64,000 nucleotides of DNA from an uncultured Mycoplasmatota bacterium. GTDB lineage: Bacteria; Bacillota_I; Bacilli_A; RF39; UBA660. The DNA lies in NCBI GenBank assembly GCA_946403755.1, contig CAMJBC010000002.1, positions 1 to 64,000 on the forward strand. The letters are read 5' to 3'. The translations under genes and the position numbers were made by a program. Shown here piece after piece: positions 21,933-55,492 of this stretch (its first letter is position 1; each line of letters starts with the position of its first letter). The notes below the pieces were generated by a model. It searched no databases. It was not told the DNA's origin and saw only the letters and a program-made list of their open reading frames with translations.

Positions 21933-21961
21933 AAATAAAAAAGCAAGTTTAACTTGCTTTT
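21933..21961 (-). terminator. Terminator after gap and the 44-residue protein
   Basis: AAAAGCAAGTT and AACTTGCTTTT form an 11-base stem with a one-base centre, so the hairpin closes with a few unpaired bases. A run of T on the minus strand follows. It overlaps the stop of the small membrane protein. Confidence 0.85.
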
Positions 21962-22094
21962 ATTTACCAAATGAAAGTAAAAAATAAATCATTATTCCTG
22001 TTGATATTAACATAGCAAAAATAGAAATTATAGAAAAAGTATCTATTTCTATCTTTTTCTTGTCTTTTTTATCCTTTACTTCATTTTCTTCCAT
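21960..22094 (-). CDS. 44-residue membrane protein downstream of gap
   Basis: A short gene with AGGAG five bases before its ATG, eight bases after the gap stop codon. The product has a charged N-terminal half (MEENEVKDKKDKKKIE) and a single membrane helix (about 20-41, TFSIISIFAMLISTGIMIYF). It ends exactly at a strong terminator, so it should be the last gene of the gap transcript. Function unknown. Confidence 0.7.
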   Translation of the reverse strand: MEENEVKDKKDKKKIEIDTFSIISIFAMLISTGIMIYFLLSFGK

Positions 22095-53362: not shown

Positions 53363-53395
53363 AATAAAAAATAGTACTATTTCTAGTACTATTTT
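53363..53395 (-). terminator. uraA-upp terminator
   Basis: AAAATAGTACT and AGTACTATTTT form an 11-base stem at the upp stop, followed by TTTTTT. The nine-base arm AATAGTACT is the same as in the hairpin inside the uraA leader. Confidence 0.9.
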
Positions 53396-54015
53396 GTTCC
53401 ATATACTCTATCCCCTGCATCTCCAAGTCCTGGAAGTATATATCCAATATCATTTAATTGTCTATCTACACTAGCACAATATATTTGAACATCTTTATGT
53501 GCTTTTTTAAGTGCATTTAAGCCCTCTGGTGCAGCGATTACACATAAGAACTTAATCTTCTTTACACCATCTTGTTTAAGCCTATTTATTGTTGCTATTG
53601 CGCTTCCTCCAGTTGCAAGCATTGGATCTAATACTAAGACTTCTCTATTCTTAATATTTTTAGGCATTTTATAATAATATTCTACTGGTTCTAAAGTTTC
53701 TTCATTTCTATATAAACCTATATGTCCAATTTTAGCATTTGGTACTACTGGTAATACTCCATCTATCATACTCATTCCTGCTCTTAAAATTGGTACAAAT
53801 GCATAATTATCTTCATTTATACATTTAGTTTTATATTCTTCTAATGGTGTATTAATAGTTGTATCTTCTAATTTAGCATCTTTTAATGCTTCATAACATA
53901 ATAATACAGCTATTTCTCCAACTAATTCTCTAAATTCTTTAGTTCCAGTTCTTTTATCTCTTAATATTGATAATTTATGTGTTATAAGTGGATGATTTAA
54001 TACTACCTCTTTCAA
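53389..54015 (-). CDS. upp: Uracil phosphoribosyltransferase
   Basis: Upp makes UMP from uracil and PRPP in pyrimidine salvage. The 208-residue protein shows HPLITHKLSILRDKRT at the start, the PRPP motif LVLDPMLATGGSA near 127-139 and the uracil-binding end DRQLNDIGYILPGLGDAGDR. It overlaps uraA by four bases, so import and capture of uracil are made together. Confidence 0.97.
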   Translation of the reverse strand: MKEVVLNHPLITHKLSILRDKRTGTKEFRELVGEIAVLLCYEALKDAKLEDTTINTPLEEYKTKCINEDNYAFVPILRAGMSMIDGVLPVVPNAKIGHIGLYRNEETLEPVEYYYKMPKNIKNREVLVLDPMLATGGSAIATINRLKQDGVKKIKFLCVIAAPEGLNALKKAHKDVQIYCASVDRQLNDIGYILPGLGDAGDRVYGTK

Positions 54016-55295
54016 TCTTCTCTCTCCCTAATTAATAAATTTAATAAGATACCTACTACTGCTGCTAAACTCATTCCTGATAATGATACAGAAATATTTT
54101 TAGTAATTAATGATATAGCTGCTCCACCTAGTCCTAATACTAACATTGATGATGCTACTATTACATTTTTAGGTCTTGAGAAATCTACATTATTATCTAT
54201 TAAAGTTTTTAAACCATTTACTGAAATAAATCCATAAAGAAGAATTGAAATTCCTCCAAGTACTGGATTTGGTATTGATGATATTAATGCAGTTAATTTT
54301 CCTAAGAACCCAAATATTATAGCAAATACTGCTGCTAATCCTGTTACCCATACTGAAGCTACTTTAGTCATACCTACTACTGAAGTATTTTCTCCATATG
54401 ATGTATTAGCTGGTCCACCAATAAATCCAGCTGCCATAGTTGCAAGACCATCACCCATAAGAGTTTTATCTAGTCCTGGATCTTCAATTAAGTCTCTATC
54501 AATAATAGCACTTAATACTTTATGATCTCCAATATGTTCTGCCATTGTAACTAATGCTATTGGTACTATTGTTAATATTGCACCAAAATTTAATTTGTAA
54601 TGTACAAATGGAATATAGAATGCTGGTTTTTGTAAGAACTTAGCAGCTTCTACTCCACCAAAATCCACAACTCCTAAAATACATGCACATATATAACCTG
54701 CTACTATTCCACATAAGAATGGTATTACTTTAAAGAATCCTTTTGCTTTAATAGCTAGTAATGCAGTTGTTAAAAATGCAACTAATGCTATTACTAAATT
54801 CTTCCAAGGAACTACTTCTAAATCTAATCCAACTTGTGATACAGCTGAAGAAGCTAATCCTAAACCTATAATCATAATCATAGGTCCTACTATAATAGGT
54901 GGTAATAATTTATTAAGCCATTTTTTACCTACTAGCTTAATAATTAAAGCAACTATTACATATACTAAACCTACTCCCATAAGTCCAGTAAATACACTTG
55001 CTTTTCCACATTTTAGAAATCCTACTATCATTGGTGAAATGAAAGCAAATGAACTTCCTAAATAAATAGGACTTTTTCCTCTAGTACATATAATATAAAT
55101 TAATGTACCAATACCAGAAGCTATTAATGCAACTGATATAGATAATACTTCTTCACCAGCAGCTTTATTTACTAATATTGGAACTAATACAGTAGCACCA
55201 AACATTGCAAATACGTGTTGAAGTGATAAAAGTAGCCATTTTCCTAGTGGCGGTTTGTCATTAACATCAAGTAACATTTTACTGTTTTTCTTCAT
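54012..55295 (-). CDS. uraA: Uracil permease (NCS2 family)
   Basis: A 427-residue transporter with about 12-14 membrane segments. LSLQHVFAMFGATVLVPIL at the start, the ALVTMAEHIGDHKV segment with the substrate-binding Glu, and GGPANTSYGENT (NCS2 signature) identify a uracil:proton symporter. GGGAGG precedes the ATG. It is the first structural gene after an attenuator with its own leader peptide, described separately. Confidence 0.96.
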   Translation of the reverse strand: MKKNSKMLLDVNDKPPLGKWLLLSLQHVFAMFGATVLVPILVNKAAGEEVLSISVALIASGIGTLIYIICTRGKSPIYLGSSFAFISPMIVGFLKCGKASVFTGLMGVGLVYVIVALIIKLVGKKWLNKLLPPIIVGPMIMIIGLGLASSAVSQVGLDLEVVPWKNLVIALVAFLTTALLAIKAKGFFKVIPFLCGIVAGYICACILGVVDFGGVEAAKFLQKPAFYIPFVHYKLNFGAILTIVPIALVTMAEHIGDHKVLSAIIDRDLIEDPGLDKTLMGDGLATMAAGFIGGPANTSYGENTSVVGMTKVASVWVTGLAAVFAIIFGFLGKLTALISSIPNPVLGGISILLYGFISVNGLKTLIDNNVDFSRPKNVIVASSMLVLGLGGAAISLITKNISVSLSGMSLAAVVGILLNLLIRERED

Positions 55296-55328
55296 TTTTA
55301 ATCCTCCCTATAAAACAATAAATTAAGC

Positions 55329-55360
55329 AAAAAAAAGTCTCACCAATAAATGATGAGACT
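55329..55360 (-). terminator. Attenuator terminator ahead of uraA
   Basis: RNA arms AGTCTCATCA (55360-55351) and TGGTGAGACT (55345-55336) form a ten-base stem with one U-G pair and a five-base loop, followed by eight U. It lies 34 bases before the uraA ATG, so it would stop transcription before the operon. The first base of the stem is the middle base of the leader-peptide stop codon. Confidence 0.85.
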
Positions 55361-55442
55361 AAATATCAAAGAAATTAACAACAATAGTACTACTTTCAGT
55401 ACTATTAAAAATAATTTTATTTTTTAGTGCTAATTCTCTCAT
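55359..55442 (-). CDS. 27-residue leader peptide of uraA-upp
   Basis: A short frame preceded by AGAGG ten bases before its ATG. The product begins MRELALKNKIIF and ends VNFFDI. Its stop TAG overlaps the first bases of the attenuator stem, so a ribosome reaching the stop would cover the stem. The middle codons form the hairpin at 55383-55406. Translation is inferred from layout. Confidence 0.7.
   Translation of the reverse strand: MRELALKNKIIFNSTESSTIVVNFFDI
55383..55406 (-). promoter_or_regulatory. Leader hairpin, candidate RNA polymerase pause
   Basis: AATAGTACT and AGTACTATT form a perfect nine-base stem with a six-base loop, inside the leader-peptide frame. About 20 bases of U-rich RNA follow before the terminator. 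In pyrBI-type control a pause in such a region depends on UTP level. Confidence 0.6.
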
Positions 55443-55463
55443 ATATTTTTTTCCTCTTTTAAA

Positions 55464-55492
55464 AGAATAACACAACTATTTGTTAAATGCAA
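55464..55492 (-). promoter_or_regulatory. Promoter of uraA-upp
   Basis: TTGCAT, 17 bases, TATTCT with an upstream TG (TGTTATTCT). It starts one base after the stop codon of the upstream HD gene and 22 bases before the leader ATG. Confidence 0.6.

Follow-up and report, generated by a model that had tools for sequence, protein, structure and literature searches.

Control of the pyrBI type is textbook E. coli biology, whereas in the Bacillota the model for pyrimidine regulation is the PyrR protein. In the 64,000-nucleotide stretch of DNA analysed here (the window), from an uncultured gut-type member of the Bacilli, the uracil genes uraA and upp are preceded by a leader that probably follows the pyrBI logic. 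A sequence-only reading of the locus had proposed a pyrBI-like, translation-coupled attenuator that responds to UTP. This reading gains support from the conservation of the leader frame and of its stop position, from an excess of U that is evident at the level of the RNA and from the absence of PyrR, and on these grounds we infer the UTP dependence; it is likely that the window leader is a UTP-sensing, translation-coupled transcription attenuator of the pyrBI type.

All elements of the leader lie on the minus strand. A promoter (55464..55492; TTGCAT-17-TATTCT, with TG before the -10 box), resembling the TTG...-17-TA...T boxes present at most relatives' leaders, is followed by a ribosome-binding site (RBS), AGAGG, with the leader start codon (55440..55460) and by a frame of 27 codons (55359..55442) that runs from ATG at 55442 to TAG at 55359 and encodes the peptide MRELALKNKIIFNSTESSTIVVNFFDI. 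The last 30 nt ahead of the terminator stem (55361..55390) form a tail of 60% U, and the intrinsic terminator (55329..55360) consists of a stem of ten pairs (55360-55336; -13.3 kcal/mol) and a U tract of eight T after the last C, of which the first T is paired in the stem. After a gap of only about 40 nt comes uraA, encoding a uracil permease of the NCS2 family (54012..55295), the end of which is overlapped by four bases by upp, encoding uracil phosphoribosyltransferase (53389..54015). Promoter, RBS-preceded frame, U-rich stretch and ten-pair terminator were all located as originally described. The perfect nine-pair hairpin of the sequence-only reading is likewise present in the window, 5' of the U-rich tail (55383..55406; nine Watson-Crick pairs plus one G-U), as a possible pause hairpin, but it does not seem to be a general feature: among the sister species a counterpart at the same place was found only in L011, L012 and L013, and local folding had a z-score of -0.45 over 60 leaders. 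A general pause hairpin 5' of the tail is not supported beyond some sister species.

The leader RNA as a whole folds with a z-score of -4.0, four terminator-like sites were observed where 0.5 would be expected by chance, and no second genomic copy of the leader terminator was found. Among 118 terminator-like sites in 462 kb from the window's genome and one sister, only two combine a short RBS-preceded frame ending in the stem, a U content of 0.5 or more and a downstream gene, the second of these being an ordinary gene for a small membrane protein that closes an operon. In the window, a 44-codon membrane-peptide gene after gap (GAPDH), at 21960-22094 on the minus strand, has a stop that abuts a terminator; it has a leader-like look, but it stands at an operon end and without a nearby promoter of its own.

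The overlap between the leader's stop codon and the terminator, another element of the sequence-only reading, is real, in that two bases of TAG lie in the stem and the stop falls at +1 of the stem start. It is not diagnostic, however. Of 59 gene terminators detected in 462 kb from the window's genome and one sister, 28 overlap a stop codon, with a median distance of about 0, compared with 0 of 15 (median 18 nt) in a control of 196 kb from E. coli; since ordinary genes of the genus so often show it, the overlap on its own proves nothing, and we rejected it as evidence for an attenuator. The terminators of these ordinary genes presumably function despite the nearby stops. A short distance between stop and terminator is a published proxy for runaway transcription (PMC7858274), and the gene ends suggest that polymerase probably outruns ribosomes by default in the host genus. 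The purine content of genes is 58.5% in the window's genome and its sister versus 51.4% in E. coli. Rho was not found in 14 genomes of the family, in which NusG is present, despite this strong purine bias, a bias that a 2026 paper ties to Rho avoidance (PMC13323073). The frequency of stop-terminator overlaps in the genus, together with the small membrane-protein gene in the window that ends likewise, would also fit an ordinary architecture, in which a small-protein gene carries its own terminator and transcription of uraA relies on leakage or on a promoter that overlaps this terminator. This explanation has to be weighed against the gap of about 40 nt between terminator and uraA, for which no strong promoter was reported, and against what is conserved among relatives.

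Comparison with relatives had been proposed as a check, the expectation being that frame and stop position, but not the peptide, would be conserved; the relatives agree with this expectation. We located uraA in nine sister species and in 39 genomes of the family. All ten leaders of the genus (10/10) have the same promoter, RBS and short frame, and in nine of the ten the stop is at the identical point of the terminator, that of L014 lying 9 nt further in; the middle of the frame cannot be recognised from one species of the genus to the next, and the indels within it, of 6 or 9 nt, are multiples of three. Of 47 uraA loci in the family, 45 had enough upstream sequence, and 40 of these, spanning 23 genera, carry a leader frame that extends to or into the terminator. 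The count leaves out L063, in which the frame ends a small upstream gene; among the five loci without a leader by script, L044 seems to have one by eye, its terminator having been missed by the script. Contigs of named genomes added more Bacilli and Clostridia metagenome-assembled genomes (MAGs) with the same leader design. When the start was set at the first start codon past the promoter with an RBS ahead of it, picked blind to where the frame ends, frame 0 was open up to the stem in 59 of the 62 leaders that remained after removal of duplicates of more than 75% identity (leaders of related species are still not independent), against one of 62 for frame +1, eight of 62 for frame +2 and 3.9 expected from shuffling. 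The stop falls within -9 to +25 nt of the stem start in 53 of the 62. The terminator finder and the promoter rule were simple and some starts were misassigned, for example in L053 and L054, so that the real frame scores lower than it should.

The leader peptides, by comparison, have no amino acid conserved along them and are unlike between genera, whereas frame, U tail and stop position are kept. Such conservation counts against a small-protein gene with its own terminator, and we regard the ordinary architecture described above as having only a very slim chance of being correct. Outside the window's genus the RBS is mostly an AGGGTG or AGGTG box just after the promoter (L035-L067, L082-L157), and a box of this type also precedes pyrB in L282. 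The Mycoplasma-like uraA loci L271 and L272, from a family in which TGA encodes tryptophan (f4), may likewise have a short frame ending at the terminator, a provisional reading from two members that depends on using the right genetic code. No leader was found ahead of upp in two sister genomes without uraA, or ahead of pyrB in four family members with aspartate transcarbamylase (ATCase).

The tail of the leader provides evidence of a different kind. Over all leaders, U accounts for 58% of the last 30 nt before the stem and for 31% at ordinary gene terminators of the genus (medians 0.60 and 0.30, p 7e-18), the leaders in this comparison coming from two classes and the controls from two genomes of a single genus; the first 30 nt after the start contain 28% U, and 0 of 384 gene ends reach the value of the window leader tail. 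When the encoded amino acids and genome codon usage are taken into account, the last ten codons contain 421 U compared with 374.5 expected (z 7.1), the genus alone gives a z-score of 3.4 and the family-only test agrees, while there is no excess of U in the first ten codons. Judged by codon choice, selection is acting on the leader RNA rather than on the peptide, since an excess beyond what the peptide demands favours a U tract over a functional peptide or a sensor of amino acids. TTNTTT, the pause motif of NusG, was no more enriched in the tail than composition predicts, and we dropped it as a tail feature.

These data bear directly on whether the attenuator might read another signal, for instance the speed of translation, charged tRNA or an inhibitor of the ribosome, with the U-rich tail serving only as a constitutive pause. 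A leader built from these parts would respond to any change in the speed of ribosome or polymerase, and vmlR of B. subtilis senses antibiotics by means of a leader frame, pausing and attenuation (PMC9226507); on the other hand, the absence of a conserved amino acid from the leader peptides, the U excess beyond peptide requirement and the identity of the downstream genes as uracil genes all speak against a signal other than UTP, which we consider rather unlikely.

The UTP-sensing reading also depends on whether PyrR could be responsible instead. The sequence-only reading had reported no PyrR-type site, and a covariance search, named in advance as the means of refuting it, has turned up none. 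The PyrR loop (RF00515) had no match in the window leader even at a permissive threshold, nor in the leaders of 20 relatives, and no other Rfam family matched the window leader at such a threshold. The PyrR protein itself was below cut-off in the window's genome (G000, 88.6% complete) and in all 51 genomes tested from the family, as well as in 14 leader-bearing MAG genomes of Clostridia type (0/14 above cut-off). It was above cut-off in six relatives from the class (G043, G046, G047, G050, G057 and G058), all with PyrR-type sites in their uraA leaders by eye or motif; as a positive control, the RF00515 loop was recovered at or above the gathering score at uraA of G043 and G050 and at L213, from the family of G050. 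Beyond the family the class is patchy: some families have PyrR sites, f6 and part of f16 have leader frames, and others have neither. At L210 (G641, family f19), uraA has no leader frame upstream and is 65% identical to that of the window in a PyrR-bearing genome of another family, which suggests horizontal transfer of this gene.

The only phosphoribosyltransferases found in the window's genome are hpt, apt, prs and upp, and no relative of ATCase or PyrE was found in this genome at 88.6% completeness, so that the bacterium probably obtains its pyrimidines mainly through uracil import and salvage. An unusual 577-aa frame elsewhere in the genome (L003 913-2643; G000:C7) fuses phosphoribosylpyrophosphate synthetase with an L-threonylcarbamoyladenylate synthase domain.

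Within the genus, the leader RNA has one further conserved element. RNAalifold analysis of the ten genus leaders predicted a 13-bp helix, P1, between codons 2-6 (5' arm, 55427..55439) and the U-rich tail (3' arm, 55368..55383), both arms on the minus strand. Across the window leader and L006-L014, 90.8% of cells pair and six of the 13 pairs have compensatory changes on both sides; the covariation score was 0.438 versus 0.293, with 0 of 500 shuffles reaching the P1 score and slid versions of the helix scoring only 0.08-0.19. Such values could be taken to mean that P1 belongs to a fold that binds a ligand or a protein, with the frame being incidental. P1 does not compete with the terminator, however, and the absence of an Rfam match also counts against such a fold. 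Moreover, pairing between start and tail weakens outside the genus, with mean z-scores of -2.0 in the genus, -1.1 in other family members and -0.4 at named loci, and the open frame persists even in leaders where no RNA structure does. A structured-RNA attenuator therefore appears very unlikely, and start-tail pairing was rejected as a family-wide feature, being clear in the genus only. An initiating ribosome would occupy the region of the P1 5' arm, and for this reason P1 would be expected to form only when the tail emerges before any ribosome has loaded.

Our working model for the UTP-sensing attenuator is that, when UTP is ample, polymerase would cross the U-rich tail before the ribosome, so that the terminator would fold and uraA-upp would be off. 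At low UTP, polymerase would dwell in the tail, the ribosome would reach the stop and cover the 5' arm of the stem, and readthrough into uraA-upp would follow. With polymerase leading by default, termination would be the ground state and slowing on U would let the ribosome interfere, and helix P1, by forming only where no ribosome is loaded before the tail emerges, may turn the switch into a race. A ribosome covering 9-12 nt past the stop leaves no foldable terminator stem. In E. coli, a terminator lying a few bases beyond a stop codon is suppressed by ribosomes near that stop (PMC4824070), and termination on pyrL in vitro falls by half when a ribosome is coupled (PMC10135430). The occurrence of the same design in many PyrR-less relatives makes sensing of UTP through the speed of polymerase relative to the ribosome probable. 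UTP sensing at the initiation site, as at upp and codBA of E. coli, is not favoured, since the likely transcript start is A-rich and without a T run.

The E. coli pyrBI leader (pyrL) shares with the window leader a promoter, a translated leader, a U-rich stretch, a terminator before the first gene, a link to pyrimidine genes and the lack of a regulatory protein. Analysed with the same scripts, the pyrL frame runs into the stem and has 40% U in the 30 nt before it, in a GC-richer genome. The differences are that pyrL has 44 codons and a stop that lies 46 nt beyond the start of the stem, which places the whole terminator within the translated region, whereas the window leader stops at the stem base; that the pyrBI genes serve synthesis and those in the window uptake and salvage; and that the window leader has P1 at genus level and a host without PyrR or Rho and with runaway-type gene ends. 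A hairpin pause has been described in the literature for the pyrBI leader. The two leaders have no sequence resemblance by eye, and we assume that the window leader arose independently of gammaproteobacterial pyrL, by convergence. PyrR attenuation of Bacillota pyr operons and uraA/pyrP (RF00515) likewise places an intrinsic attenuator ahead of this permease gene within the class; in the window a translated frame stands in place of the PyrR protein and PyrR loop. Closer in host, the leaders of B. subtilis vmlR and the predicted leaders of hisS/hisZ (PMC2965389) also control an intrinsic terminator through a translated frame in Bacillota, but they sense antibiotics or an amino acid via ribosome stalling, whereas the window leader probably relies on slowing of polymerase on U.

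We found no prior description of such uraA leaders in the open-access papers that we searched. They indicate that the logic of pyrBI, applied to uracil import, is widespread in a large uncultured family of the Bacilli and in Clostridia MAGs, where it is tied to the absence of PyrR. We offer only tentatively, as an idea more doubtful than the attenuator itself, that PyrR may have been replaced throughout the lineage by a UTP-sensing race between ribosome and polymerase, in which termination would be the default, only UTP starvation would restore coupling and P1 would close the loading window. The leaders illustrate how a metabolite may be sensed with neither a protein nor an aptamer. As they sit in genomes with runaway-type gene ends, where ribosome-coupled attenuation is not expected, they offer a direct test of whether local slowing of polymerase can restore coupling in bacteria of the runaway type.
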